This document shows positions 41,461-57,514 of a DNA stretch of 64,000 bases, piece by piece. Location: NCBI RefSeq assembly GCF_030316765.1, contig NZ_JASZYT010000001.1, positions 558,001 through 622,000 of the forward strand, given 5' to 3'. How positions within the stretch are numbered: position 1 is the stretch's first letter; each line of letters opens with the position of its first letter. Source of the stretch: Variovorax saccharolyticus (lineage in GTDB: Bacteria > Pseudomonadota > Gammaproteobacteria > Burkholderiales > Burkholderiaceae_C). The translations under genes were made by a program, and so were the position numbers. Under the pieces are notes generated by a model. It saw only the letters and a program-made list of their open reading frames with translations, made no database searches and was not told the DNA's origin.

Positions 41461-41673
41461 CTATTTGGTCAGGATCAGCTTGCCGAGTTTGGTGGCTTGC
41501 AGGCGATACAGCGAGCCGTTGTGCAGGATGCCGACGGTCTTGCCGCCCTGGAGAAGCTCCGCGCTTTCGACCAGCGGAGCAGGGCGGGCCGATTCGGCCG
41601 CAGCGCGGCCCCCGCCTGAATGATCCAGCGAGGGGTGGTTCAGCACGGTGAAGGCGTTGGGCGTTGCGGACAT
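41461..41673 (-). CDS. hemP: Hemin uptake protein HemP
   Basis: 70 residues. The C-terminal part (SAELLQGGKTVGILHNGSLYRLQATKLGKLILTK) is the HemP/HmuP signature, in which H-N-G-x-x-Y-R-L and the ending K-L-I-L-T-K are invariant. HemP/HmuP proteins are small cytoplasmic DNA-binding regulators or aids of heme uptake in beta- and alphaproteobacteria. The ATG at 41673 has AGGAG eight bases upstream, and a Fur box lies within 50 bp. It is 13 kb away from the heme transport operon, which begins at 55.3 kb. Confidence 0.93.
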   Translation of the reverse strand: MSATPNAFTVLNHPSLDHSGGGRAAAESARPAPLVESAELLQGGKTVGILHNGSLYRLQATKLGKLILTK

Positions 41674-41700: not shown

Positions 41701-41719
41701 GTTAATGATAACCATTCTC
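41701..41719 (-). promoter_or_regulatory. Fur box upstream of hemP
   Basis: GTTAATGATAACCATTCTC matches 16 of 19 bases of the consensus GATAATGATAATCATTATC. It lies 28 bp before the hemP start and so probably represses it when iron is plentiful. Confidence 0.8.
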
Positions 41720-42187: not shown

Positions 42188-42901
<714 letters not shown>

Positions 42902-42921: not shown

Positions 42922-43620
42922 TTAATTGAGAACCCAGTTGATCGGCACGTTGAACTCCATCGGTTCAACGACCCCATTTCGTTTGCCCGGCACGTAGCGC
43001 CAGCCCATCACGGCGGTGCGGGCGGCCTCGTCGAGCCGCTCGTAGCCGCTCGACTGGCGGATGGAGGCCTGCTTGGGCAGTCCGTCGACGCCGATCAGCA
43101 CCCTCACGATCGTCTTGCCCTGCTCGCCGAGCCGCTTGCTCATGGCTGGATAGACTGGCTTCGGGTTCTGCAGGTAGTCGGCGTTGCTCGACGGCAGCTG
43201 GACCGAGGGCGGCGCCGGCGGCGCGGGCGGTGGCGCGGGCGGCTCCGGCGGTGCGGGGGGCGCGGGCGGTGCCGGCGGCGGGGGCGGCTCGATGCTGCCG
43301 GTCGGCGCGTTGGGTGCCGGCGTCGGCTTGAGCTCGCGGATCGCCTGGGGCCGCGGCGGCGGCGGTGTCTTGGTCACCACGCGCTTGGGCTCCGGCGGTG
43401 GCGGGGGAGGCGGCGGCGGCAGTTCCTTGGGCTTCGGCGGCTCGATGAACTCGCTGAGGATCTGGACCGGGATCACCACCTCGGCGGCGCGGCGCAGCAG
43501 CCCGCTTTGCAGCGCCCAGAGAGCCGCGACGTGAAACAGCACCACGCCGCCTGCGATGACGGCGTTGCGCGACAGGCCAAGGGCCGATGGGGGCGGGGAA
43601 AAGCGGTCAGACACGATCAA
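42922..43620 (-). CDS. tonB: Energy transducer TonB
   Basis: 232 residues. One N-terminal anchor helix (VIAGGVVLFHVAALWALQSG), a long proline-rich linker (about residues 60-140) with several uninterrupted Pro runs, and the C-terminal TonB domain (NPKPVYPAMSKRLGEQGKTIVRVLIGVDGLPKQASIRQSSGYERLDEAA) ending in GVVEPMEFNVPINWVLN. It carries energy from ExbBD to the outer-membrane receptors, including the two in this window. The Pro runs make it a likely client of EF-P. Confidence 0.96.
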   Translation of the reverse strand: MIVSDRFSPPPSALGLSRNAVIAGGVVLFHVAALWALQSGLLRRAAEVVIPVQILSEFIEPPKPKELPPPPPPPPPEPKRVVTKTPPPPRPQAIRELKPTPAPNAPTGSIEPPPPPAPPAPPAPPEPPAPPPAPPAPPSVQLPSSNADYLQNPKPVYPAMSKRLGEQGKTIVRVLIGVDGLPKQASIRQSSGYERLDEAARTAVMGWRYVPGKRNGVVEPMEFNVPINWVLN

Positions 43621-44111: not shown

Positions 44112-44792
44112 CTAGACTTCAGACCACATGCGAAGCAGGTTGTGGTAGTGGCCGGTGAGGGCGATCGATTCCTCGGACTCGCCGAGCCGGCCACGCAGTT
44201 TCTGGATCACCTGGTCGAGTTCGAACAGCATCGCGCGCTGGCGATCGTCGCGCACCATGCTTTGCAGCCAGAAGAAGGAGCACACGCGGGCGCCTTGCGT
44301 CACCGGGTGGACCCGGTGCAGGCTGCTCGACGGGTAAAGGATCAGGTCCCCCGCCGGCAGCTTGACTTCATGGGCCCCGTAGGTGTCGACCACCTCGAGT
44401 TCGCCGCCTTCGTATTCTTCGGGATCGCAGAGGAACAGGGTGCACGACAGGTCGGTGCGCAGTTGCTCGCCGGTGCCCGGCACCGAACGCACCGAGCCGT
44501 CGACATGCAGCCCGTAGTGCTCGCCGCCCTCGTAGCGGTTGAACAGCGGCGGCACGAAGCGCAGCGGCAGGGCGGCCGAGAAGAACAGCGGATTCCGGGC
44601 CAGTGCCGCCAGGATGGTGCGGCCCAGCTCGTGTCCCACCGGGGACTGCTCCGGCAACTGCCGGTTGCGCTTGACCCGGGCGCCCTGGTCGCCCACGGTC
44701 GCGCGGCCGTCGACCCAGTCGGTGGCTTCCAGCCTGGCACGCATTTCACGCACCTGCTCGGCGCTCAGTACATCGGGCACATGCAGCATCAT
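44112..44792 (-). CDS. PKHD-type Fe(II)/2-oxoglutarate hydroxylase (PiuC/YbiX family)
   Basis: 226 residues. The metal ligands are in YGLHVDGSV (H-x-D) and [15 protein letters not shown] (second His, then Arg binding 2-oxoglutarate). [13 protein letters not shown] is the family core. PiuC/YbiX proteins sit next to catecholate siderophore receptors in many proteobacteria, as here next to a Fiu-type receptor; substrate unknown. The two ATGs (44792 and 44789) are adjacent. A terminator lies between the receptor and this gene, so full-length cotranscription would need read-through. Confidence 0.92.
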
Positions 44793-44878: not shown

Positions 44879-47272
44879 TCAGAAGGCGAAGTTGGCCGTG
44901 ACGCGGGCCGAACGCGGAATGCCCGGCGTGTAGCGGTAGCCGCTCTTGTTGATCGCCGCCACGTACTGCTCGTCGAAGATGTTGTAGACGTTCAGCTGGA
45001 GTTCGACGTTCTTGTTGATGCGGTACGAGGCCATGGCGTCGAACACCCAGTAGGCGTCGGTGTAGGCCGGGGTGCCGATGGCGCCGTCGGTGCCGCGATG
45101 CAGCTTGCCGTTGTAGCGTGCGCCGCCGCCGATGGTCAGGCCGAAGGGCAGCTGGTAGCTGGTCCACAGCGTGAAGGCGTTCTTGGGCGTGTAGGCCAGC
45201 ACGTCGCTGCCGTCGGCGGTGACGGCCGGGCCGCTCTGCACCGAGGTGTCCATGGTCGTGAAGCCGGCGCTGACGCCCCAGTTGGCGGTGATCGCGCCGG
45301 CGGCGCCGAGCTCGATACCCTGCACGCGCTTCTTGCCGGTCTGGTAGTACAGCAGCGTGGTCGGGTCCTGCACCACTTCGTTCTTGACCTCGGTGCGGTA
45401 GAGCGCGGCGGTCAGCGACAGGTTCTTGTTCAGCACGTCCCACTTGGTGCCGACCTCATAGGTGGTGGCTTCCTGCGGGTCGAAGTCGGTGCGAGAGGCG
45501 CTGCTGCCAGTGCCGGCGGCGGCCAGGGCGAAGTTGGCGCCGCCCGGCGGTTGGGACGAGGTGCCCCAGGCCGCGTAGATGCTGCCGTTCTCGGCCGGCT
45601 TGTAGACCACGCCGAGCTTGCCGCTCCAGAGGTCGCCCGAGGTCGACAGATCGGTCGGGGTGATGGCGCGCGAAGGCAGGGTCAGCGCGGTGGCCGAGTA
45701 GCTGGTGTCGTAGTGGTCGTAGCGGACGCCGCCGGTGAGCTGCCACTGCTCGTTGATCTTCATCGTGTCGAAGGCGTACAGGCTGACCGTGTCGGTCTTC
45801 CCGAACGAGCCCGTGCCATTGGAGATCCGGTTGTAGCCGGTCACGTTCGGATTCGGGTTGTACAGGTTGGCGACCGGCCAGGAACCGGCCGGCGCGAAGG
45901 TCGTGTTGATCGACGCAAAGCCCGGCGAGTAGAAGTTGCCGAGCGACTGTTCCTCGCGCAGCAGCTCGAGGCCGAAGTTCGCGGTGTGGCTGAAGGCGCC
46001 GGTGTTGAACTTGGACGACAGGCTGGTCTGGTTCAGGATGATGGTGTTTTCCTGATCCTTGTTGGTCGGTCCGTTGCGCGTGACGGTCCAGGTCAGCGGG
46101 TTGTTCGGGTTCGGCGTGTTGATGAAGCCGGCCGTGAGCGCGGGCACCGTGCCGCGGTAGGTACTGGTCTGGCCCACGCGCGTGGCCGTGAGGCCGCCGA
46201 GCATGAACGAGGTCAGCATGTAGTCCTGCTGGGTCTTGCCGTAGCGCGTGACGTTGCGCAGCGTCATGTCGGGCGTGATGTCGTGCTCGACGCGCGCGGT
46301 GAACATGTCGGCCGTCACGTCGTTGAAGTCGGACGTGGTGCCGTAGAAGTTCTTCGAATCGACGGGCTGCGCGAAGTTGAGGAAGGTCCGGCGCAGGATC
46401 GGCGAGTTGATCAGCAGCGCGTCCGGGGTCGAGTAGCCGGGCAGGCCGATGGTCGGCACGCCGCCGTCGGGCACGTTGTCCTGCTTCACGTGCAGGTAGT
46501 CGAGGAACACGCGCGTCGGCGTGTTGAGGCCGAAGGCGATCGAGGGCGCGAAGCCCCAGCGCTTGTTCTTCACTTCGTCGCGGCCGGCGACACCACCGTC
46601 TTCGGCGACTGCATTGATGCGGAAGGCGGTGGACGAGCCGTCGGCGGCGCCGATGACGCGGTTCCAGTCGAGCGTGCCGCGGCCGAAGTCTGCGCTGCCG
46701 TAGGTGAGCGAACCCGAGAAGCTGTTCTCGAGCTTCGGCTTCTTGCTGATCAGGTTGATGTAGCCGGTCGGCGAGGTGCGGCCGACATCGGTGCCCGACG
46801 GGCCCTTGACCACTTCGACCTGCTCGATGTTGAACATGTCGCGCGAAATGGAACCGAGGTCGCGCACGCCGTCGACGAAGATGCTGCCCGACGCATCGAA
46901 GCCGCGCATGAAGATCGAGTCGCCGGTGTTGGTGTTGCCGTTCTCGCCGAGGAAGAAGGCGCCCGCGCCCGGGGTGTTGCGCAGCGCCTCGGTCAGCGTG
47001 GTGGCGCCTTGCTCGCGCATCAGGGCTTCGGGAATCACCTGGATGACCTGCGGAATGTCCACCAGCGGTGCGGTGAACTTCGGGTTGGCCGAGTTCTCGA
47101 CCCTGAAGTCGTTCGCCGTGGTGTCCTCGACGCGGACTTCCTTGAGGGTGTTCGAGGTGGTCTGCGCGGAGGCGGGCAGGGACAGTGCAATCAGCGTGGC
47201 GGCAGCGGCCGCGCTGCCGAACGGAGGCAGCGCGCGCGCGACAGCGTGCTTGCGGCTCTTGATGTAGGCCAT
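44879..47272 (-). CDS. TonB-dependent catecholate siderophore receptor, Fiu type
   Basis: 797 residues. Signal peptide (LIALSLPASA), then a TonB box region (NTLKEVRVEDT), plug domain (about 70-180; LVDIPQVIQVIPEALMREQGATTLTEALRNTPG and DSIFMRGFDASGSIFVDGVRD) and a 22-strand barrel ending in Phe (RSARVTANFAF). The plug wording matches the Fiu/CirA-like TonB-siderophore family. It imports ferric siderophores across the outer membrane using the tonB-exbBD system 2 kb away. A Fur box lies in the upstream region. Neighbour PiuC supports this. The exact siderophore is not predictable. Confidence 0.9.
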   Translation of the reverse strand: MAYIKSRKHAVARALPPFGSAAAAATLIALSLPASAQTTSNTLKEVRVEDTTANDFRVENSANPKFTAPLVDIPQVIQVIPEALMREQGATTLTEALRNTPGAGAFFLGENGNTNTGDSIFMRGFDASGSIFVDGVRDLGSISRDMFNIEQVEVVKGPSGTDVGRTSPTGYINLISKKPKLENSFSGSLTYGSADFGRGTLDWNRVIGAADGSSTAFRINAVAEDGGVAGRDEVKNKRWGFAPSIAFGLNTPTRVFLDYLHVKQDNVPDGGVPTIGLPGYSTPDALLINSPILRRTFLNFAQPVDSKNFYGTTSDFNDVTADMFTARVEHDITPDMTLRNVTRYGKTQQDYMLTSFMLGGLTATRVGQTSTYRGTVPALTAGFINTPNPNNPLTWTVTRNGPTNKDQENTIILNQTSLSSKFNTGAFSHTANFGLELLREEQSLGNFYSPGFASINTTFAPAGSWPVANLYNPNPNVTGYNRISNGTGSFGKTDTVSLYAFDTMKINEQWQLTGGVRYDHYDTSYSATALTLPSRAITPTDLSTSGDLWSGKLGVVYKPAENGSIYAAWGTSSQPPGGANFALAAAGTGSSASRTDFDPQEATTYEVGTKWDVLNKNLSLTAALYRTEVKNEVVQDPTTLLYYQTGKKRVQGIELGAAGAITANWGVSAGFTTMDTSVQSGPAVTADGSDVLAYTPKNAFTLWTSYQLPFGLTIGGGARYNGKLHRGTDGAIGTPAYTDAYWVFDAMASYRINKNVELQLNVYNIFDEQYVAAINKSGYRYTPGIPRSARVTANFAF

Positions 47273-47386: not shown

Positions 47387-47405
47387 GGTAATGATAATAA
47401 ATCTC
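47387..47405 (-). promoter_or_regulatory. Fur box upstream of the siderophore receptor
   Basis: GGTAATGATAATAAATCTC matches 14 of 19 consensus bases and contains a perfect half site TAATGATAAT. It lies 115 bp before the receptor start within 219 bp that hold no gene. Confidence 0.7.
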
Positions 47406-47491: not shown

Positions 47492-48856
47492 TCAATAAAC
47501 GTCGCGGCGGTATCTGCCGCTTGCCAAAAGCTCCCCCATGCCCGCTTCACCGACGATCTGCCGGAGCGCCGCATCGACGCCGCCTGCCATGCCCTGCAGG
47601 CTGCCGCAGACATAGATCGCCGCATCCCGCGCGATCCAGTCCCGGACCTCTTCGTGAAGCTGCAGCAGCCGGTGCTGGACATAGCGCCGTTCCGCCTGGT
47701 CGCGCGAAAAGACCATGTCCAGACGCTGCAGGACGCCCGTGCGCTGCCAGGCTTCGAGCTCGCCGCGGCACAGGTAGTCGTGGGCTTCGTTGCGCTCGCC
47801 GAAGACCAGCCAGTTGTCGTGCCGGCCCAGCGCGGCGCGGGCGCGCAGGTGGCCGCGCAGGCCGGCCAGCCCGGTGCCGTTGCCGATCAGGAGCAGCGGC
47901 CGCTGCGCGTTCTCGCCGAGGCGGAAATTGCGGTGCGGGCGCAGGCGCAGTTGCAGCGTGTCGCCGAGCCCGAGGGACGAGGTCAGCAGGCCCGAACCGG
48001 CGCCGAGGCTGCCGTCCGGATGCCGCTCCTGCCGCACCAGCAGGTGCAGCTCGCCGTCGGTCGGAATGGAGGCGATCGAATAGTCGCGCGGCCGGCCCGG
48101 ATCGCTCGCGAGGCTCAGCTGGGCGATGTCGCCGGACTCCCAGTGCGGCGCCGGGCCGGACGCGGGCGCGAAGGCCAGCAGGTAGACCGGCGCACCCGCG
48201 CTGCCGCCGTTCAGCAGGCTGCGCCGGGCCAGGCGCCACGGCGCGGCGGCGGCTTCGGCCGTGTCGGCTGCGTCGTCGGCCGGCGCGCCGCCCCACTGCG
48301 ACTGCCAGGCGGCGAGCGCGGCGGGCTCGGCGTTGTCGACTTCGATGCGTTCGAAACTGCGCGTCGCGCCGGCCGCGTGCAGCCAGTCGTCGAGCAGCCG
48401 CCCGAAGCGGCAGAAATTGGCGTACTGGCGGTCGCCCAGCGCGAGCACCGCATAGCGCAGCGAACTCAGGTCCGCCTTGGCGCCCATGATGTGCTCGGCG
48501 AACACGCTGGCGCCGTCGGGCGCATCGCCTTCGCCGTAGGTGCTGGCGATGAACAGCGCCTGCGGCGCCTGGCGCAGGAGTTCCGCGTTCGCCTCGTTGA
48601 GCGACATCACGCGCGCGGGCGTGCCGGCATCGTGCAGCCAGCGACCGGTTTGCCAGGCCAGCGCCTCCGCCTGGCCGGTCTGGCTGGCGAACAGCACCAG
48701 CGTCGCCGCGCGGGGGTCGTTGCCGGCCAGGGCCGCGCCCCGTTGCGTCAAGGCTTCGCGCCGACGGCGCTGCCGCATCCAGATGGCTGCGCACAACGCG
48801 GCATAGGCGAGCAGCGTCAGGCCCGCAGCCAGCGCCCGCAGCGCGGTCTCGTTCAT
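47492..48856 (-). CDS. Membrane-anchored flavodoxin/NADPH reductase (sulfite reductase flavoprotein-like)
   Basis: 454 residues. One N-terminal membrane helix (LAAGLTLLAYAALCAAIWM) is followed by a basic stretch (RQRRRREA), which puts the rest in the cytoplasm. The flavodoxin domain (about 50-190) has FASQTGQAEALA and STYGEGDAPDGASVF; the FAD domain has RDYSIASIP; the NADPH domain has LIGNGTGLAGLRGHL and YVCGSLQGMAGGVDAAL, ending in RYRRDVY. The C-terminal Tyr stacks on FAD in this family. It should carry electrons from NADPH through FAD and FMN to a membrane partner. It is the last gene of a five-gene operon; its ATG overlaps the apbE stop. Confidence 0.88.
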   Translation of the reverse strand: MNETALRALAAGLTLLAYAALCAAIWMRQRRRREALTQRGAALAGNDPRAATLVLFASQTGQAEALAWQTGRWLHDAGTPARVMSLNEANAELLRQAPQALFIASTYGEGDAPDGASVFAEHIMGAKADLSSLRYAVLALGDRQYANFCRFGRLLDDWLHAAGATRSFERIEVDNAEPAALAAWQSQWGGAPADDAADTAEAAAAPWRLARRSLLNGGSAGAPVYLLAFAPASGPAPHWESGDIAQLSLASDPGRPRDYSIASIPTDGELHLLVRQERHPDGSLGAGSGLLTSSLGLGDTLQLRLRPHRNFRLGENAQRPLLLIGNGTGLAGLRGHLRARAALGRHDNWLVFGERNEAHDYLCRGELEAWQRTGVLQRLDMVFSRDQAERRYVQHRLLQLHEEVRDWIARDAAIYVCGSLQGMAGGVDAALRQIVGEAGMGELLASGRYRRDVY

Positions 48857-49893
48857 GGGGCGAGGGAAGCGTCCGGCCAGCCGGCGCTCGTGACGATGCG
48901 CGGGCCCCGGTCGTCACGACAAACGAAGAGCGCGGGCACCGCGTGCCGCTCGGCGAAAGCCAGGCCGTCCTCGGGCCCGAGCACGGTCAGCACCGTGGCG
49001 AGCGCATCGGCCTGCATGCACTCGCGGTGCAGCACCGTCACCGATGCGAGCGCGTGGCGCACGGGCTCGCCGGTGCGCGGATCGAGGGTGTGCGACCAGC
49101 GTCGGCCCTGATGCTCGCGCACGTGCCATCGGTCGCCGGAGGTCGCGATCGCGAGTTCGGCGAGTGCCACATGGCTGGCCGCGCCGGCCGGCGCGGCCAC
49201 CTGCACTCGCCAGGGATCGCCGCCGGGGCGGCGGCCGGCCGCGCGCAGTTCGCCGCCGACCTCGACCAGGAAATCCGACAGTCCGAGCGCGCGCAAGGCA
49301 GCGCTGGCCTGGTCGACCGCGAAGCCCTTGGCGATGCCGGAGAGATCGAGTTCGACCGCGCCCGGCTGGACGGCCGTGCGGGTCTCGGGGTTGAGCGCCA
49401 GGCGCTGCCAGCCGACCCTTGCGCGTGCCTGGGCCAGCGCCGCGGAAGAGGGCGGCCCTGCGTTCGATGCATCCGCGTGGGCACCGAAGCCCCACAGGCC
49501 GACCAGCGGCCCGATGCTCGGGTCGATCGCTCCGCCGCTGGCGGCTGCCCATTGCAGCGCGCAGGCCAGCACCTCGGCGAAGCCGGGCTCGAGCAGGTGC
49601 CGGCTGCCGGCTTCCGAGCGGTTGAAGCGGCTGATGTCCGAGTCCGGTTCCCAGGTGCTCATCTGCGCGACCACGCGGTCGAGCGCGGCCTGGACGCCCG
49701 CGCGCACGTCATCGAGGGCGAGCATGCGCGGGTTGTCGAAGCGCAGCGACCAGCTCGTGCCCATGCTGCGGCCCGCCACGGACTGCAGCGTCGGCGGATC
49801 GGCGCGACGCGGCCGCGGCGTGTTGGCGTAGCCGCCCGCGCGCCAGGTCGCGAACGAAGGGCGAGGCGCGGACGTTTCGGGCGTGGAACTCAG
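48853..49893 (-). CDS. apbE: FAD:protein FMN transferase
   Basis: About 346 residues. ApbE covalently attaches FMN from FAD to Thr or Ser of exported proteins. Canonical motifs appear in order: MSTWEPDSDISRFNRS, LDLSGIAKGFAVDQA, VEVGGELRAAG, HTLDPRTGEPV, and DALATVLTVLG with the metal-binding Asp. No clear signal peptide or lipobox, so its side of the membrane is uncertain. The start is uncertain too: CTG at 49893 forms a CTGA overlap with the DUF4198 stop; other in-frame options are TTG 49986, GTG 49779 and ATG 49764. The core begins at MGTSWSLRF (49764). Neighbours suggest its target is the DUF2271 protein. Confidence 0.9.
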   Translation of the reverse strand: MSSTPETSAPRPSFATWRAGGYANTPRPRRADPPTLQSVAGRSMGTSWSLRFDNPRMLALDDVRAGVQAALDRVVAQMSTWEPDSDISRFNRSEAGSRHLLEPGFAEVLACALQWAAASGGAIDPSIGPLVGLWGFGAHADASNAGPPSSAALAQARARVGWQRLALNPETRTAVQPGAVELDLSGIAKGFAVDQASAALRALGLSDFLVEVGGELRAAGRRPGGDPWRVQVAAPAGAASHVALAELAIATSGDRWHVREHQGRRWSHTLDPRTGEPVRHALASVTVLHRECMQADALATVLTVLGPEDGLAFAERHAVPALFVCRDDRGPRIVTSAGWPDASLAP

Positions 49894-50693
49894 GGCATCA
49901 CTTCCAGGGTTGCGGCATAGCTCAGGCGGCGTTCCTTGGCCTTCGGCACCGAGGTCTTCTGGTCGGTCGTGCTGACGTCGAGCCAATACATGCCGGCCAC
50001 CGGCCAGGTCACGCTGAACTGGCCCTTGGCGTCGGTCTTGAGCTTGAGTTCGTCGAGTTTGTCGCGGTAGCGCGTGTTGCCCAGCGTGACCGTGACCTCG
50101 AGATCCTTGGCGGGCTGGCCGTCGAGTTGCAGCGTGAAGCTGGTCTTCTCGCCCTTCACCAGGTCGGTCGGGTTGGCCGTGACCAGTTCGAGGCCCTTGC
50201 CGGTAGCCCGCAGCGTGCTGGGCTTGCCGACGGTGATGAAGGTCTCGTTGCGGCCGGCCGACTGCGTGATCTCGACTTCCAGCGCATCGGCCGGGATCTG
50301 GGCGGCCAGGCTCTCAGCGGTGCCGCGGGCGCGCTTGGTCTGGCCCGTGGCCTTGTCCTTCCAGCGCGCGAAGATGCCGTCGTTGACCAGCGCGACGCGG
50401 TAGGTGCCGGGCTGCGTGAGGTTCAGGTCGAACACGCTGCGCAGCTTGCCCTTGAACATGTTCTCCGGCTTGATCGCGCTGCCGTCGGGTGCGGTGACGG
50501 CCAGGCTGTCCAGGTTCAGCGGGTTGTGATTGAAGAAGAACAGGTCGTTCGAGACCGCGGCATCGACCGTGACCCAGTCGGCCTTGGAGAGGACCGTGCT
50601 CGAGGGCATCAGCCACGCGTTGTGGGCCTGGACGGCGGCGGCGCCGGCGCTGAGGGCGAGACCGAGTGCGAGGGTGCGAAGAGAGAGCTTCAT
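49890..50693 (-). CDS. DUF4198 domain periplasmic protein
   Basis: 267 residues with a Sec signal peptide (MKLSLRTLALGLALSAGAAAVQA). Predicted cleavage after AQA would leave His24 as the new N-terminus (HNAWLMPSSTVL). The rest is beta-rich: an Ig-like DUF4198 body, SFTLQLDGQPAKDLEVTVTL and GQFSVTWPVAGMYWLDVS. DUF4198 proteins are linked to transition-metal handling in several loci; an N-terminal His could bind a metal ion. It is third of the five genes in the operon, 36 bp after DUF2271. Confidence 0.88.
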   Translation of the reverse strand: MKLSLRTLALGLALSAGAAAVQAHNAWLMPSSTVLSKADWVTVDAAVSNDLFFFNHNPLNLDSLAVTAPDGSAIKPENMFKGKLRSVFDLNLTQPGTYRVALVNDGIFARWKDKATGQTKRARGTAESLAAQIPADALEVEITQSAGRNETFITVGKPSTLRATGKGLELVTANPTDLVKGEKTSFTLQLDGQPAKDLEVTVTLGNTRYRDKLDELKLKTDAKGQFSVTWPVAGMYWLDVSTTDQKTSVPKAKERRLSYAATLEVMP

Positions 50694-50728
50694 GATGGAT
50701 TTCCGGTAGAGGGGAAAGGAAGAAAGGC

Positions 50729-51253
50729 TCAGGGCTTGAGTTCGAGCGAGACCTCGCCGAGCTCGCTGCTGCCCGCGACCTTCGACTGATCGGCCTTCGC
50801 CGGCGGCCACTGGAACGGGATGCTCACGATCTCGCGGCCGCCGACCTCGCGCGCCGCTTCGACGTACAGCTTGTAGGCGCCGGGGGCCAGCTTGGGCAGC
50901 GCCACCGAACCTTCGGAGAGCGCGATCTGATGCTTGCCGGCCGGCCGCGTGGCGCTGCTCACGCCGTCGACCGGCATCTCCAGCTCGCGGCCGGTGCGCC
51001 GCCACCACTGGCGCATGTCCTTCAGCCACTTGGTGCCTTCGCCTTCGGCGTTGCCGCCCTTGTTCTTGACGTCGTACCAGACTGCCAGCGTGCTGGCGAC
51101 CGACTGATCGGGCCGCTCGATCCAGGCCGCCACGTAGGGGCGGTGGTACTCGGACACGTTGAGTCGCGGCACTTCGATGTTGACCGTGAGCCCCGCGGCG
51201 AAAGCCGGTGCGCCGAACAGCGCGGCGAGTGCGAGGGAGTAGCGAACTTGCAC
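50729..51253 (-). CDS. DUF2271 domain periplasmic protein, possible flavinylated electron carrier
   Basis: 174 residues from a GTG start with AAAGAGG six bases upstream. Signal peptide VQVRYSLALAALFGAPAFAAG. The body is a DUF2271 beta-sandwich (YVAAWIERPDQSVASTLAVWYD, then KWLKDMRQWWR). Residues 96-102 are DGVSSAT, close to the D-G-x-S-G-A-T flavin acceptor of FMN-bind proteins, with Thr102 as the candidate attachment site. This gene is second in the operon, two genes before apbE. The flavinylation idea is inferred from motif and context; no FMN-bind domain is present. Confidence 0.87.
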   Translation of the reverse strand: MQVRYSLALAALFGAPAFAAGLTVNIEVPRLNVSEYHRPYVAAWIERPDQSVASTLAVWYDVKNKGGNAEGEGTKWLKDMRQWWRRTGRELEMPVDGVSSATRPAGKHQIALSEGSVALPKLAPGAYKLYVEAAREVGGREIVSIPFQWPPAKADQSKVAGSSELGEVSLELKP

Positions 51254-51272
51254 GAAAAACCTCTTTCCTGGA

Positions 51273-51917
51273 TCAGTGGATGAACAGCAGCGCGAGCAGC
51301 ACCGGAATGACCAGGCCCATGCCGACCATCGGCCAGGTGAAGGGCCGGTTGCCGGCGTGCATCTTGAGAATGAAAAGCCCGGTGATCGAGAACACCAGCG
51401 TGGCGGCCGCGAAGATGTCGATGAACCAGCTCCAGGCGGCACCGCTGTTGCGGCCCTTGTGCAGGTCATTGAAATAGGAGAGCCAGCCGCGGTCGGTACG
51501 CTCGTACTCGGCCTCGCCGTCGATCAGGCTGAGGCGCAGCCAGGCATCGCCGCCGGGGCGGGGGAGGGAGAGGTAGATCTCGTCGTCCGTCCACTCGGCT
51601 TCACGCCCGCCGGTGTCGATGTCCCACTGATTGCGGATCCACTGCTGGAGCTCGGCGGGCAGTTCGGCCTTGCCCTTCTGCGCCTTGGCGGCCGCGACCT
51701 GCTTCTGCAGCGCGGCGCGCAGCGCATCGTCGACGCTGGCGGTGCGGCTCGTCACCTTCGGCTTGGCCTCGATGCTGGCCGCGTGATTGAGCGTGAAGCC
51801 CGTGACGCCGAACAGCAGCAGTCCGATCAGGCAGAGCGCCGAACTGACCCAGTGCCATTCGTGCAGGGTCTTGAGCCAGTAGGCGCGGCGGCGGTTGTCG
51901 GTGGTGGCGGCGGTCAT
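51273..51917 (-). CDS. PepSY-associated transmembrane protein
   Basis: 214 residues. Helices at about 22-45 (VSSALCLIGLLLFGVTGFTLNHAA), 165-185 (FIDIFAAATLVFSITGLFIL) and 195-213 frame a periplasmic part with EWTDDEIYLSLPRPGGDAWLRL. Histidines at LHEWHW, LNHAA, NDLHKGR and KMHAG lie at membrane edges, as in PepSY_TM relatives of FoxB/PiuB that carry heme or electrons. It is first in the operon; the DUF2271 GTG is 20 bp downstream. A Fur-like site lies upstream. A role in ferric-siderophore reduction is inferred from context. Confidence 0.85.
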   Translation of the reverse strand: MTAATTDNRRRAYWLKTLHEWHWVSSALCLIGLLLFGVTGFTLNHAASIEAKPKVTSRTASVDDALRAALQKQVAAAKAQKGKAELPAELQQWIRNQWDIDTGGREAEWTDDEIYLSLPRPGGDAWLRLSLIDGEAEYERTDRGWLSYFNDLHKGRNSGAAWSWFIDIFAAATLVFSITGLFILKMHAGNRPFTWPMVGMGLVIPVLLALLFIH

Positions 51918-51942: not shown

Positions 51943-51961
51943 GATGAGAATGAATTCTATT
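51943..51961 (-). promoter_or_regulatory. Possible Fur box upstream of the redox operon
   Basis: GATGAGAATGAATTCTATT has the GAGAAT half and an ATTCTAT half; about 10 of 19 consensus bases match. It is 26 bp before the PepSY gene start. It is weaker than the other three Fur sites in this window. Confidence 0.4.
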
Positions 51962-52068
51962 TGCAGGGCCTCCGCCCAAACTGTCCGCGCCGCGGTGATG
52001 CCGCTCCAGCCCTTGTCGAGGCTGGAGGGATTGCTCTCATTTCGATAGCGATGAAGTTTCGTAAAGTC

Positions 52069-52114: not shown

Positions 52115-52591
52115 CTATTCGGCTTCACCCATCTGCGACTGCAGGTAGTTCTGCAGCCCGACCTTGCCGACCAGTTCGATCTGGGTCTCGAGGAAATCGA
52201 TGTGCTCCTCGGTGTCGTCCAGGATCTCCTGCAGCAGGTCGCGCGAGACATAGTCGCGCACGCTTTCGCAGTGGGCGATGCCGGCCTTGATCGTGGCTTG
52301 GGCGCCGGTCTCGGCGCGCAGGTCGCATTCGAGGATCTCGGGCACGTCCTCGCCGACCTGGAGCTTCGCGAGGTCCTGCAGGTTCGGCAGGCCGTCGAGC
52401 ATGAAGATGCGGTCCATGATCTTGTCGGCGTGCTTCATCTCGCCGATCGATTCGTCGTATTCCTTCTTGGCCAGCTTGTCGAGGCCCCAGTGCTTGAGCA
52501 TCCGGTAGTGGAGGAAGTACTGGTTGATCGCGGTCAGCTCGTTCTTGAGCTGCGCCTGCAGATGGTCGATGACTTGTGGGTCGCCCTTCAT
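52115..52591 (-). CDS. bfr: Bacterioferritin
   Basis: 158 residues, the usual length. Ferroxidase ligands: Glu18 (LKNELTAINQY), Glu51 and His54 (IGEMKHADKIM), Glu94 or nearby (DLRAETGAQ) and Glu127/His130 (DDTEEHIDF). Met52 of GEMKHA is the heme ligand that separates bacterioferritin from ferritin. It stores iron as a mineral in 24-subunit shells. Its partner bfd is 8 kb away. Divergent from ahpC with 215 bp between starts. Confidence 0.97.
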   Translation of the reverse strand: MKGDPQVIDHLQAQLKNELTAINQYFLHYRMLKHWGLDKLAKKEYDESIGEMKHADKIMDRIFMLDGLPNLQDLAKLQVGEDVPEILECDLRAETGAQATIKAGIAHCESVRDYVSRDLLQEILDDTEEHIDFLETQIELVGKVGLQNYLQSQMGEAE

Positions 52592-52806: not shown

Positions 52807-53379
52807 ATGTCCCTGATCAATACCGAAATCATCCCGTTCAAGGCCACGGCTTATCACAATGGCAAGTTCGTGCCTGTCAGCAACGAGAACTTCAAGGGCA
52901 AGTGGTCCGTCGTCGTGTTCTACCCGGCCGATTTCACCTTCGTGTGCCCGACCGAACTGGGCGACCTGGCCGACCACTATGCTGAATTCCAGAAGCTCGG
53001 CGTCGAGGTGTACGGCGTTTCGACCGACACCCACTTCACCCACAAGGCCTGGCACGACACCTCGGACACCATCGGCAAGGTGCAGTACCCGCTGATCGGC
53101 GACCCGAGCCAGCAACTGGCGCGCGCCTTCCAGGTCCTGATCGAGGAAGGCGAAGACGCCGGTCTCGCCTACCGCGGCACCTTCGTGATCGACCCCGAAG
53201 GCAAGATCAAGACCATCGAAGTGCACGACAACGGCATCGGCCGTGACGCCGCCGAACTGCTGCGCCGCGTGAAGGCTGCCCAGTACGTCGCTGCGCACCC
53301 GGGCGAAGTCTGCCCCGCCAAGTGGACCGAAGGCGCGGAAACGCTCAAGCCTTCGTTCGACCTGGTCGGCAAGATCTAA
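52807..53379 (+). CDS. ahpC: Alkyl hydroperoxide reductase subunit C (typical 2-Cys peroxiredoxin)
   Basis: 190 residues. Peroxidatic Cys in [17 protein letters not shown] (about residue 47) and resolving Cys in [13 protein letters not shown] (about 166). It reduces organic and hydrogen peroxides and is recycled by AhpF. AHPF follows after a hairpin that may lower its expression. Its placement beside bfr ties iron storage to peroxide defence. Confidence 0.97.
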
Positions 53380-53398
53380 GTCGCTTCGTTCGCCCCAG

Positions 53399-53429
53399 AG
53401 CCCGGGCTGCGTTCGCTCCCGGGCTTTTT
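53399..53429 (+). terminator. Terminator-like hairpin between ahpC and ahpF
   Basis: Perfect 8-bp stem AGCCCGGG/CCCGGGCT with an 11-base loop, followed by TTTTT. It would stop part of the ahpC transcripts before ahpF, giving more AhpC than AhpF. Confidence 0.75.
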
Positions 53430-53462
53430 CGTTCCCATTGCATTGAAGAAGAAGGTTTAACC

Positions 53463-55040
53463 ATGCTCGACGCCGGCACCAAATCGCAACTCAAAAGCTA
53501 CCTCGATCGCATCACGCAGCCGGTCGAGATCGTCGCATCGCTCGATGACAGCAAGGCGTCGGGCGATCTGCAGGCGTTGCTGAAGGACGTGGCCGAATCG
53601 TCGCCGCTGGTGAAAGTCACCGAGAGCCGCGACGACCAGCATCGCAAGCCCTCCTTCTCGATCAACCGGCCCAGCGAAAACCACGGTCCGCGCTTCGCGG
53701 GCATCCCGATGGGCCATGAATTCACCTCGCTGGTGCTCGCGCTGCTGCAGGTCGGCGGCTACCCGCCCAAGGTCGACGAGGCCGTGCTGCAGCAGATCCG
53801 CTCGCTCGACGGCGACTTCGAGTTCGAGATCTACATCTCGCTGACCTGCCACAACTGCCCGGACGTGGTGCAGGCGCTGAACCTGATGGCGGTGCAGAAC
53901 CCGCGCATCAAGGCCACGATGATCGACGGCTCGCTGTTCCAGGACGAAGTCAAGGAGCGTCAGATCATGGCCGTGCCGACCGTCTTCCTGAACGGCACCG
54001 AGTTCGGCCAGGGCCGCATGAGCCTGGAGGAAATCCTCGCCAAGATCGACACCAGCGGCGTCGAGCGCGAGGCCCGGAAGATCGCCGCCAAGGAGCCCTT
54101 CGACGTGCTGATCGTCGGTGGCGGCCCGGCCGGCGCCGCCGCCGCGGTGTATGCCGCGCGCAAGGGCATCCGCACCGGCGTGGCCTCGGAGCGCTTCGGC
54201 GGCCAGGTGCTCGACACCATGGGTATCGAGAACTTCATCTCGATCCGCGAGACCGAAGGCCCCAAGTTCGCGCTCGCGCTCGAGGAGCATGTGCGCGACT
54301 ACGACGTCGACATCATGAACCTGCAGCGTGCCGCGGCGCTGGTCCCGGGCGAGGACTTCATCGAGATCCAGCTGCAGAGCGGCGCCACGCTGAAGAGCCG
54401 CTCGGTCGTGATCTCGACCGGCGCGCGCTGGCGCAACATCAACGTGCCGGGCGAGCACGAGTACAAGAACAAGGGCGTGGCCTATTGCCCGCACTGCGAC
54501 GGTCCGCTGTTCAAGGGCAAGCGCGTGGCGGTCATCGGCGGCGGCAACTCGGGCGTCGAGGCGGCGATCGACCTGGCCGGCATCGTCGGCCACGTGACCC
54601 TGATCGAGTACGACACGCAACTGCGTGCCGACGCCGTGCTGCAGCGCAAGCTGCACAGCCTGGCCAACGTGAAGGTGATCACCAACGCGCAGACCACCGA
54701 GATCACGGGCGACAAGCAGAAGGTCAACGGCCTGGTCTACAAGGACCGTGCGACGGGCGAGAGCCACACGGTGCCGCTCGAGGGCGTGTTCGTCCAGATC
54801 GGCCTGATTCCGAACACCGATTGGCTCAAGGGCACGGTGGAGTTGTCCAAGCACGGCGAGATCGTGGTCGACAACAAGGGCCAGACCTCGGTGCCGGGCG
54901 TGTTCGCGGCCGGCGATGCGACGACGGTGCCGTTCAAGCAGATCATCATCGCCGCCGGTGATGGCGCGAAGGCGGCGCTGAGCGCCTTCGATCACCTGAT
55001 CCGTACGTCGGCGCCGGCCGAAGAGGCCGTCGCGGCCTGA
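53463..55040 (+). CDS. ahpF: Alkyl hydroperoxide reductase subunit F
   Basis: 525 residues. N-terminal double thioredoxin-fold domain (about 1-200) with the CxxC of [11 protein letters not shown], then a pyridine nucleotide-disulfide oxidoreductase part: FAD motif [18 protein letters not shown], redox CxxC in [15 protein letters not shown] motif [17 protein letters not shown] and [11 protein letters not shown]. It passes electrons from NADH to AhpC. ATG 53463 was chosen; longer in-frame starts run into ahpC. Confidence 0.97.
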
Positions 55041-55184: not shown

Positions 55185-55294
55185 ATAGTACGGGTCGGGC
55201 ACTTAGCCCGTTCACCCGCCAGCCAGATCGAGGTGCGCCGACCCGGCGCGTGGTCCAGCAAGCAGCTTCTCCAAACGCTGTCCCTGGACTCCAC

Positions 55295-57514
55295 GTGTCA
55301 CGCTCCAACGCCTTCTCGCATCGACTTCGACTTCTTCCCTGGCTGATCGCTTCTGCCTTCAGCACCCATTCGCTCGCTCAGGAAGCCGGCCCGGCCCGCA
55401 TCGCGGCACTCGGCGAAATCGTGGTGAGCGGCACGCGCTCCGAGCAGAGCAGGGACGACATCCCGGCGACGGTCGAGGTGATCGATCGGCAGCAGATCGA
55501 GTTCGAGCAGATCCACGACATCCGCGATGCGGTGCGCGACATTCCCAACGTGTCGGTGCGCCGCGCGCCCGCGCGCTTCGGACTGGCCACCGGCAACACC
55601 GGCCGCGACGCCAACGCGGGCTTCAACATCCGCGGCCTCGACGGCAACCGCGTGCTGCTGATGACCGACGGCATCCGCATGCCGCGCAGCTATGTCTTCA
55701 GCGCCAATGCCTTCGGCCGCGACTACTTCGACCTCGGGCTGATCGAGCGGATCGAGATCATCAAGGGCCCGGTGTCGGCACTTTACGGATCGGACGGCCT
55801 GGCCGGCCTGGTGAACTTCATCACGCGGCAGCCCGAGAGCTTCCTGGCCGACGGCAAGACCTTCGGCGGCAGCGCGAACGTCGGCTACAGCGGCGACAAC
55901 AACGGCTGGCAGGGCGGCGTCACGATGGCAGGCAAGGCGAGCGACACGGTCAGCTGGCTGATCTCCGCTAACGGCAGCCGTACCCACGAGCTGGAGAACA
56001 TGGGCACCAACTACGCCCGCAACTCGGACCGCACGGCGCCCAATCCCGAGCTCAGCAACACCCAGTCGCTGCTTGCCAAGGTGGTGGTCACGCCGAATGC
56101 AGACCTGACGCACAACCTCACCTTCGAGCATGTGGCCAGGTCGACCGGCTATGACCTGCTCTCGGGCATCTCGAAGCCGCCGCTGACGGCGACCTCGGTG
56201 ATCGGCCTCGGCGCCCTGACCAACCTGCAGCGCGACCGCCTGACCTGGGATGGCCGGCTGCGTGTGAACTCGGTGCTGGCCGACAACGTGCTGGGTTATC
56301 TCAGCTACCAGAAGGCCGATTCGCGCGAGCAGGCCTGGGAGACGCGCTACCGGTCTGCCACCCGGATGCGCGACGTCGACTACAGCGAGAACACCTGGCA
56401 GGCCGGGCTGCAGGCCGACAAGACGCTGCGGATGTCCGGCGACTGGTCGCAGCGCATCACCTACGGCTTCGACTACACGAACACGCAGGTGGAGAACCTG
56501 CAGACCGGCCTGGTGCCGCCCGTCGGCGAGGTCTATCCTCTGAAGCGTTTTCCCGACACCACCGAGAAGACCGCGGCCTTCTACATCCAGGACGAATTCA
56601 TCCATGACCAATGGAGCATCACCCCCGGGGTGCGTTTCGACCATTTCGACATCGATGCCGACCAGGCCGGATTCACCCCTCGCGCGGTCTCGCTGTCCGA
56701 CTCGGCGGTTTCGCCGAAGCTGGGCGTGCTGTTCCGTGCCACGCCGCAATGGACCCTCTACGGCAACTACGCCGCGGGCTTCAAGGCACCCAACGCCTTC
56801 CAGGTCAACAACTTCTTCGAGAACGTGGTGTCGGGCTACCGGACCATCCCGAACCCCAACCTCAAGCCGGAAACGAGCCAGAACTTCGAGCTCGGCACGC
56901 GCGGCCGCGTCGGCATCCTGAACTTCGAGGCGGCGGTCTTCACCGGCACCTACGACGACATGATCGAGAACGATCGCCAGGTCAGCGGCGTCTTCGGCTC
57001 GCGCACCAATCCCGCGACCTTCCAGTCGGTCAACATCGGCCGCGCGCGCATCGACGGCTTCGAGTTCAAGGGCGAGCTCGACTGGACCCGCGAGGGCACC
57101 GGCTTCTCGCTGCCCTTCGCCTATGGGCGCACCAACGGCGAGGACCGCACGGCGAACGTCCCGCTCAACTCGGTCGAGCCGGAGAAGTTCGTCGCCGGCC
57201 TCAAGTACCAGGCCCCGACCTGGACCGTGCGCCTCGACGCGGTCCACTACGCGGCCAAGAAGCGCAGCGATGTCGATCCGGCCGAGGTCACCACCGGCGT
57301 GCAGTTCCTGACTCCCTCGGCCACCACGCTGGACCTGAATGCGCAGTGGCGCATCCGGCGCGACCTGCGCCTGAACGTCGCGTTGATCAACGTGACCGAC
57401 AAGAAGTACTGGATGTGGAGCGACGTGCGCGGTCTCGCCGCGAGTTCGCCCGTCGTCGATGCCTACACCCAGCCCGGCCGGCACTTCAACGTGTCGCTCG
57501 TCGCCGATTTCTGA
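55295..57514 (+). CDS. TonB-dependent heme/hemoglobin receptor
   Basis: About 739 residues from GTG 55295; GTG 55250 is an alternative. Signal peptide (LRLLPWLIASAFSTHSLAQ), plug domain (EIVVSGTRSEQSRDDIPATVEVIDRQQIE, then GFNIRGLDGNRVLLMTDGIRMP), and a barrel. The heme-receptor motif appears as FKAP...NPNL (AAGFKAPNAFQVNNFFENV and TIPNPNLKPETSQNFELG). It carries heme from host or environmental hemoproteins across the outer membrane. It heads a five-gene heme operon with hemS-, hmuT-, hmuU- and hmuV-like genes, and a strong Fur box lies upstream. Confidence 0.92.
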   Translation: MSRSNAFSHRLRLLPWLIASAFSTHSLAQEAGPARIAALGEIVVSGTRSEQSRDDIPATVEVIDRQQIEFEQIHDIRDAVRDIPNVSVRRAPARFGLATGNTGRDANAGFNIRGLDGNRVLLMTDGIRMPRSYVFSANAFGRDYFDLGLIERIEIIKGPVSALYGSDGLAGLVNFITRQPESFLADGKTFGGSANVGYSGDNNGWQGGVTMAGKASDTVSWLISANGSRTHELENMGTNYARNSDRTAPNPELSNTQSLLAKVVVTPNADLTHNLTFEHVARSTGYDLLSGISKPPLTATSVIGLGALTNLQRDRLTWDGRLRVNSVLADNVLGYLSYQKADSREQAWETRYRSATRMRDVDYSENTWQAGLQADKTLRMSGDWSQRITYGFDYTNTQVENLQTGLVPPVGEVYPLKRFPDTTEKTAAFYIQDEFIHDQWSITPGVRFDHFDIDADQAGFTPRAVSLSDSAVSPKLGVLFRATPQWTLYGNYAAGFKAPNAFQVNNFFENVVSGYRTIPNPNLKPETSQNFELGTRGRVGILNFEAAVFTGTYDDMIENDRQVSGVFGSRTNPATFQSVNIGRARIDGFEFKGELDWTREGTGFSLPFAYGRTNGEDRTANVPLNSVEPEKFVAGLKYQAPTWTVRLDAVHYAAKKRSDVDPAEVTTGVQFLTPSATTLDLNAQWRIRRDLRLNVALINVTDKKYWMWSDVRGLAASSPVVDAYTQPGRHFNVSLVADF

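Follow-up and report, generated by a model that had tools for sequence, protein, structure and literature searches.

We describe here a five-gene operon of Variovorax saccharolyticus. It lies in a stretch of 64,000 nucleotides referred to as the window (assembly GCF_030316765.1, contig NZ_JASZYT010000001.1, positions 558,001 to 622,000). The genome is 7.4 Mb and estimated to be complete, and the nearest named relatives are Variovorax. All five genes are on the minus strand and, in order of transcription, encode a PepSY_TM_like_2 membrane protein of 214 residues (51273–51917; PF16357, E 2.8e-83; PF03929, E 4e-9), a DUF2271 protein of 174 residues with a Sec-type signal peptide (50729–51253; PF10029, E 4.4e-50), a DUF4198 protein of 267 residues with a signal peptide (49890–50693; PF10670, E 1.4e-51), ApbE, a flavin adenine dinucleotide (FAD):protein flavin mononucleotide (FMN) transferase whose start codon is unsure (48853–49893; PF02424, E 8.4e-81), and a membrane-anchored flavodoxin/NADPH (reduced nicotinamide adenine dinucleotide phosphate) reductase of 454 residues (47492–48856; Flavodoxin_1, 7.9e-28; NAD_binding_1, 1e-10). 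Intergenic gaps are 19 and 35 bases, the ApbE gene comes directly after that of DUF4198, and the ApbE and reductase genes overlap by 4. An earlier note, made from the letters alone, had read these five genes as running without large gaps, and family matches and spacing bear it out. A defence role was dropped, PADLOC giving no match for any of the five proteins. Two points deserve a second look: the opposite predicted locations of ApbE and its likely substrate, and an altered metal site in DUF4198. What is new here is that the linked ApbE is mostly without a recognisable export signal while DUF2271 has one.

The operon was compared with 80 related loci, the best 80 of 589 relatives. They were picked by DUF2271 similarity and are therefore not a random sample; each was fetched with up to 8 kb a side, less at contig ends. 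Gene content was scored with hidden Markov models built from the window proteins, so that a gene scored as missing may be diverged. All five genes are present in 72/80 loci, the co-occurrence of DUF2271, DUF4198, PepSY_TM and ApbE being what the earlier note proposed to check; the other eight miss one or two genes, some being cut by contig ends. Two loci from Azoarcus and Thauera (L070, L076) have PepSY, DUF2271 with its acceptor motif, DUF4198 and the reductase, with no ApbE seen in the fetched stretch. Among 100 genomes of the genus, DUF2271 occurs in 71 and ApbE in 81. ApbE is found in 71/71 genomes with DUF2271 versus 10/29 without it (related genomes, not independent), and a hand count gives exactly one ApbE match in 55 of the 71. 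DUF2271 scores over the cut-off in 75 of 397 genomes of the phylum; an initial class-wide search had given few strong members (7/276 over cut-off).

From its sequence, DUF2271 is likely to be an FMN carrier in the periplasm. ApbE has been reported to flavinylate a DUF2271 (an Amantichitinum protein) at a conserved threonine, giving covalent FMN (eLife 2021, PMC8238504). In the window the corresponding motif, DGVSSAT (50948–50968, minus strand), ends at Thr102. In an alignment of 81 proteins (the 80 loci and the window), the opening D and G are kept in 81/81 and the acceptor position is T in 80 and S in one, with variable inner positions (G 59, S 18, Q 4; A 58, P 23). The published strict motif, [S/T]GA[S/T], is reported as conserved in the same source, where systems are assigned by domains and not by the motif (PMC8238504); it fits 46 of the 81 proteins and not the other 35, and ApbE is nonetheless found in 77/80 loci. 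The earlier note remarked on a flavin transferase with no FMN-bind domain beside it, and the motif in DUF2271 went unnoticed. The idea of an operon without an acceptor was dropped, since DUF2271 is a published ApbE substrate that keeps the acceptor residue. The genome holds one DUF2271 and one ApbE. A genome search for other ApbE substrates found no FMN_bind, DUF3570 or NqrB/RnfD (flavodoxin and FMN_red, two further flavinylated classes (PMC11334425), were not searched). These three families were dropped as alternative substrates and DUF2271 is thus the sole member of the four families searched; the absence of an FMN-bind domain, already remarked on for the operon, extends to the whole genome. 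An acceptor-like motif was sought in the other four operon proteins and not found.

The N-terminus of DUF2271 is signal-like in 78/81 proteins by a home-made hydrophobicity rule, also used for the other proteins below. The rule asks for ten consecutive residues, none of them charged, His or amide, placed after K/R and averaging at least 1.6 on the Kyte-Doolittle scale. It is applied from any ATG, GTG or TTG that lies no more than 75 residues ahead of an anchor motif or, where no anchor was found, of the start of the profile match. The DUF2271 leaders are of the Sec type. A twin-arginine motif is present in 2/80, and export of prefolded, flavinylated DUF2271 by the twin-arginine (Tat) route was dropped on that ground.

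The window ApbE has a full-length domain (PF02424 positions 1–266 of 266), its closest solved relative being 5mgy (E 4.7e-63). No export or lipoprotein signal was found in it from any start codon examined, rare ones included, in a stretch that begins 110 codons ahead of the MGTSW motif. The canonical in-frame starts among these fall within DUF4198 or immediately ahead of the conserved MGT motif, and a CTG overlaps the DUF4198 stop. Upstream, the stretch SFATWRAGGYAN recurs across Variovorax loci. As controls, E. coli ApbE passes the hydrophobicity rule with a score of 2.84, while 0/19 Bfr and 1/46 PiuC proteins score as signal-like. Among the 78 linked ApbEs 11 have a signal-like N-terminus, three clearly (L059, L072, L086); the other eight score just 1.6 to 2.0, and five share an RV(L/F)IP stretch in which relatives have acidic residues. 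In further loci, 5/34 standalone ApbE rows pass (the window's own gene is among the 34 and two rows repeat a genome); L115 is a clear lipoprotein and L102, L103 and L108 pass narrowly. The fifth, L143, does so solely by a stretch inside the mature domain. An ApbE tree does not tell loss of the signal from gain: its three rows with a signal imply two changes and sit near weakly supported forks. Most of the named Burkholderiales and Lysobacteraceae loci have no leader, nor does one Rhodospirillaceae locus (L053). Four ApbEs of a second DUF2271-ApbE cluster type also have none, though one of these, L154, passes the rule by a stretch inside the mature domain, as L143 does.

Forms predicted to be exported are seen where ApbE and DUF2271 are fused. 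Of eight fusion candidates fetched for their long frames, L131 had no match to ApbE, L132 is not a fusion, and the other six (L126–L130, L133) all have a signal-like N-terminus. They come from four genomes, two of which share one genus and carry two fusions each. Four of the six were scanned by Pfam, and in L129, L130 and L133 a PepSY gene follows directly. Ten ApbEs of the genus without DUF2271 in the fetched stretch are led by twin arginines, and 9/10 pass the rule (with a looser anchor), which is thus able to see exported ApbEs in the same genus. In these Variovorax-genus ApbEs (L146–L149, L158–L162 and L165) the leader, which looks twin-arginine dependent, starts with (M/V)KRR or a close variant, and the open frames are often long.

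It therefore appears, on sequence grounds, that the two proteins have opposite predicted locations: ApbE stays inside the cell and its likely substrate, DUF2271, is exported. Because the export signal is missing, ApbE is probably cytosolic in action, and the simplest reading this suggests is that the flavin is attached to DUF2271 by a cytosolic ApbE before Sec export. For DUF2271 systems as a whole, we put it at somewhat under an even chance that FMN is attached to the precursor in the cytosol and the flavinylated chain exported via Sec, with ApbE needing no periplasmic FAD. Covalent FMN would then have to cross the Sec channel, and the usual need for an FAD exporter would fall away. In Listeria the extracytosolic ApbE-like FmnB is reported to need a dedicated FAD exporter (PMC9973259). 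The EetB family, the substrate-binding subunit of that type of exporter, was not found in the genome, other exporter types not having been tested. Flavinylation before export, if true, would give ApbE chemistry a second sequence of steps, with modification first and export afterwards; many Pseudomonadota would share it, and fused or leader-bearing ApbEs would be exceptions acting after export. In literature searches on ApbE modification before export or secretion, on cytosolic ApbE and signal peptides and on FAD transport, no abstract among those listed states flavinylation before export. With one ApbE, one substrate among the four families searched and opposite predicted locations for the two, the operon lends itself well to asking in which compartment extracytosolic flavin proteins gain their flavin and from which source the FAD is drawn.

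The PepSY protein is likely, from its sequence, to be a diheme b-type cytochrome moving electrons across the inner membrane. Its His19, 22, 45, 153, 187 and 214 are kept in 73, 78, 78, 79, 76 and 79 of 79 proteins. In an AlphaFold2 model (predicted local distance difference test, pLDDT, 83.8), with three membrane helices by eye, these histidines sit at the ends of membrane stretches or close by, on both membrane faces. They would be the heme ligands, which in FoxB and its relatives are likewise reported at the ends of membrane stretches (PMC11334425, PMC13001220, PMC13038864). A PDB sequence search with the PepSY profile gave one match (E 1.7). The electron input is likely to be the membrane-anchored reductase, which has CysJ-like stretches and a single hydrophobic N-terminal stretch, amounting to one membrane helix; a hydrophobic N-terminus is found in 74/77 reductase proteins. 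In the second cluster type, PepSY, flavodoxin and reductase are fused as one protein (two proteins scanned by Pfam), which supports the separate PepSY protein and reductase acting as one unit here.

DUF4198 is likely to be a periplasmic metal binder. Its N-terminus is signal-like in 80/81 proteins, and at the expected cleavage point Ala is followed by His in 81/81, so that the predicted mature protein opens with His (codon 50622–50624 in the window, minus strand). In mature numbering His33 is kept in 78/81, and His1 and His33 are the sole histidines listed as conserved. An N-terminal His has already been reported for the family, as has a nickel site with His1 and His18 as ligands, the dissociation constant (Kd) of a DUF4198 for nickel being 18 nM (Nat Commun 2025, PMC12537917); the main text of that article does not contain the words PepSY, flavin, ApbE or iron. 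Residue 18 of the mature window protein is Val, and the metal site would therefore have a second ligand other than in the solved relative. The model of the window protein (pLDDT 91.6) matches Zcp (Z 19.7), ranked first in fold searches and containing zinc, copper and cobalt in its structures, and nickel-bound 9gcb (Z 15.3; 204 residues, root-mean-square deviation 4.8). Nothing convincing came from a sequence search with mature DUF4198 alone; the DUF4198 profile reached Zcp at E 0.001. A literature search on Zcp with zinc and periplasm found nothing. The Zcp entries (PDB 9mhi-9mho) are deposited as phosphoribosylglycinamide formyltransferase, a name that seems ill-suited to a beta-sandwich metal protein. 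The operon ties this conserved N-terminal-His protein, so far reported as a nickel binder, to what is probably an iron-reduction module.

The neighbouring genes point to iron. Upstream lies bacterioferritin (52115–52591, minus strand; TIGR00754, 238 bits, cut-off 125.55). Downstream are a Fiu-type catecholate siderophore receptor of the PiuA/CciT type (44879–47272, minus strand; NF007349, 1040.8 bits, cut-off 686) and a 2-oxoglutarate-Fe(II) dioxygenase of the PiuC/YbiX/CciO type (44112–44792, minus strand; NF003975, 352.1 bits, cut-off 180), followed in the same iron island by TonB (42922–43620) and ExbB (42188–42901); Bfd is likewise among the downstream neighbours. The placing of the operon between a Fiu-type receptor and bacterioferritin in the earlier note is thereby upheld. 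Within the fetched stretches of the 80 loci, a receptor matching the Fiu profile, which also matches other TonB receptors, is found in 54, PiuC in 45, both in 43 and neither in 24. Beside bacterioferritin, an AhpC-type peroxiredoxin and an AhpF-like reductase (52807–55040) place peroxide defence next to the iron genes, and a second TonB-dependent receptor on the plus strand (55250–57514) is also matched by the Fiu profile.

Fur-like sites were scored against a 19-base consensus, with significance taken from mononucleotide shuffles. The weak site that the earlier note saw in front of the operon is there (51946–51964, minus strand; 12/19 matches, reached by 38/1000 shuffles). A strong site separates the operon from the Fiu gene (47387–47405, plus strand; 15/19, 0/1000 shuffles), another precedes the second TonB receptor (from 55164; 14/19), and the best 19-mer of the window lies before hemP, which ends near 41461 (41701–41719; 16/19). 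Across 79 upstream regions (78 loci and the window), 34 hold a match reached by at most 2/100 shuffles, where about 2 would be expected; in the other 45 the best match does not exceed chance by this test. Of the 17 named Variovorax loci scanned, 14 have their best upstream match at -46 to -48, the same place as the weak site of the window. The corresponding Caulobacter operon, CC_3059-3063, is reported to be induced by iron limitation and to be bound and repressed by Fur (PMC3751524). Transposon mutants of this operon (CCNA_03155-03159) are reported as less fit in ethylenediaminetetraacetic acid (EDTA), as are mutants of cciT/cciO, the PiuA/PiuC pair (PMC12004947). Alteromonas DUF4198/DUF2271 pairs are described as iron-responsive (PMC7190382).

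Taken together, we are fairly confident that the operon is a Fur-type iron-reduction module, running from NADPH through the reductase, the PepSY hemes and FMN on DUF2271 to ferric iron, with a probably cytosolic ApbE step; the relay probably reduces iron outside the inner membrane. We infer the electron path, heme binding, iron as the physiological metal and the place and time of flavinylation. ApbE would load FMN onto DUF2271, probably while the precursor is still in the cytosol and Sec export has yet to occur. The membrane-anchored reductase would draw electrons from cytosolic NADPH, and the PepSY protein, by way of two bis-His hemes, would relay them to the other side of the inner membrane. 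Covalent FMN on DUF2271 would then carry them in the periplasm to ferric iron brought by TonB receptors such as Fiu. DUF4198 would bind metal through its N-terminal His and may retain iron or pass it on, and the ferrous iron released would be taken in by a ferrous transporter; a FeoB-like gene is present in the genome. The earlier note had proposed a route from NADPH to a periplasmic flavoprotein that reduces ferric siderophore, and this reading is partly supported. The route itself agrees with PMC8238504 and with the conserved gene set; a siderophore role is only suggested by the neighbours Fiu and PiuC, and 24/80 loci have neither a Fiu-like receptor nor PiuC in the fetched stretch.

Several observations weigh against the module as drawn. 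The window's own operon has only a weak Fur site, its DUF2271 carries SSAT rather than the published [S/T]GA[S/T], and the solved DUF4198 prefers nickel (PMC12537917). FoxB is not among the 50 fold matches listed for the PepSY model, whose confidence is moderate and whose best matches (Z up to 7.7) are unrelated chains. As to ApbE, the signal test is a hydrophobicity rule of our own with no trained predictor behind it. Four standalone linked ApbEs (L059, L072, L086, L115) have clear signal peptides, while for the eight linked ApbEs already mentioned, and likewise for L102, L103 and L108, the margin is narrow. Among unlinked ApbEs of the genus, six (L150–L153, L163, L164) are also without a leader, so that its absence is not special to the DUF2271-ApbE operon. 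In a thiamine growth test covered in a review, a cytosolic ApbE form could not replace the periplasmic one (PMC12052999).

These last points bear on where ApbE acts. It might get to the periplasm by an unrecognisable route, piggyback or leaderless export, and modify DUF2271 there as in classical systems. Most of the ApbEs studied are described as periplasmic lipoproteins (PMC12052999), the eLife 2021 work used a DUF2271-linked ApbE with its signal peptide removed (PMC8238504), and the clear signals of the four standalone ApbEs point the same way. We nevertheless consider this unlikely, since the window ApbE has no signal from any start examined and most of the named Burkholderiales and Lysobacteraceae loci are leaderless, whereas the fusions keep their leader in 6/6. 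A cytosolic ApbE could also act on an unrecognised cytosolic protein, leaving DUF2271 unflavinylated in this organism. Cytosolic ApbEs with cytosolic substrates are known in Klebsiella and trypanosomatids, and in the review it is only with such substrates that cytosolic ApbEs are presented (PMC12052999); moreover, the flavodoxin and FMN_red classes were outside the genome search. Three known substrate families are absent, however, the other four operon proteins offer no acceptor-like motif, the DUF2271 acceptor residue is kept in 81/81 and DUF2271 is fused to ApbE in six loci, all of which makes this alternative very unlikely.

Other questions concern the metal and its carrier. That the module reduces or traffics copper or nickel instead of iron is suggested by the resemblance of the DUF4198 model to Zcp and to nickel-bound 9gcb, by the nickel affinity of a DUF4198 and by the PepSY_TM protein CrpH, reported to support copper enzymes (PMC13038864). 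This is set against neighbours that include Fiu, PiuC, Bfd, bacterioferritin, TonB and ExbB, the Fur control of the Caulobacter operon, the Fur-like sites in relatives and the loss of the nickel ligand His18, and we regard it as very unlikely. Iron reduction could, on the other hand, serve one siderophore class only, the ferric catecholates imported by the adjoining Fiu. Fiu and PiuC lie directly downstream in the window and recur in many of the loci, and the EDTA defects in Caulobacter are alike for the operon and the PiuA/PiuC pair. Yet the 24 loci with neither gene, the breadth of the Fiu profile (which matches the receptor at 55250–57514, for example), the strong Fur-like site that Fiu has to itself and the fact that EDTA is no siderophore leave so narrow a role doubtful, if still worth entertaining.

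The operon contains a PF16357/PF03929 protein with ApbE and a signal-like DUF2271 within five genes, and is a further member of the already described PepSY-like flavinylation systems. With these (PMC8238504) it shares the PepSY-like protein, ApbE, the DUF2271 substrate and a secreted DUF4198, and the earlier note was right that ApbE loci with PepSY proteins are known in outline. That source reports 3220 such clusters, 2833 with DUF2271 and 1500 with DUF4198, and proposes iron assimilation. The window differs in that its reductase is a separate membrane-anchored flavodoxin/NADPH protein and its ApbE is without an export signal, which the passages of PMC8238504 consulted do not mention. With the PepSY ferri-siderophore reductases FoxB and HiuB it has in common the PepSY_TM superfamily, histidines fit for two hemes and, probably, periplasmic iron reduction, whereas its PepSY protein, at 214 residues, shows three helices by eye, and FoxB is not among the 50 fold matches listed for it. 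FoxB is not known to have a flavinylated partner. IsDUF4198 (PDB 9GCB, PMC12537917) and the window DUF4198 share the domain, the mature N-terminal His and a similar fold (Z 15.3); the window protein has Val in place of His18, conserves His33 and sits among iron rather than nickel genes. The cytosolic Klebsiella ApbE is likewise without a signal peptide, but its substrate is a soluble fumarate reductase that, unlike DUF2271, is not exported (PMC12052999). Closest of all is Caulobacter crescentus CC_3059-3063 (CCNA_03155-03159), whose five genes agree with these in kind and order and are annotated as transporter, DUF2271, DUF4198, ApbE and sulfite reductase flavoprotein (PMC3751524). By locus numbers it lies apart from the PiuA/PiuC pair (CCNA_00028/00027), whereas Fiu and PiuC are directly downstream in the window. 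The exact five-gene combination is thus already described, and the earlier interpretation was broadly right but not new.

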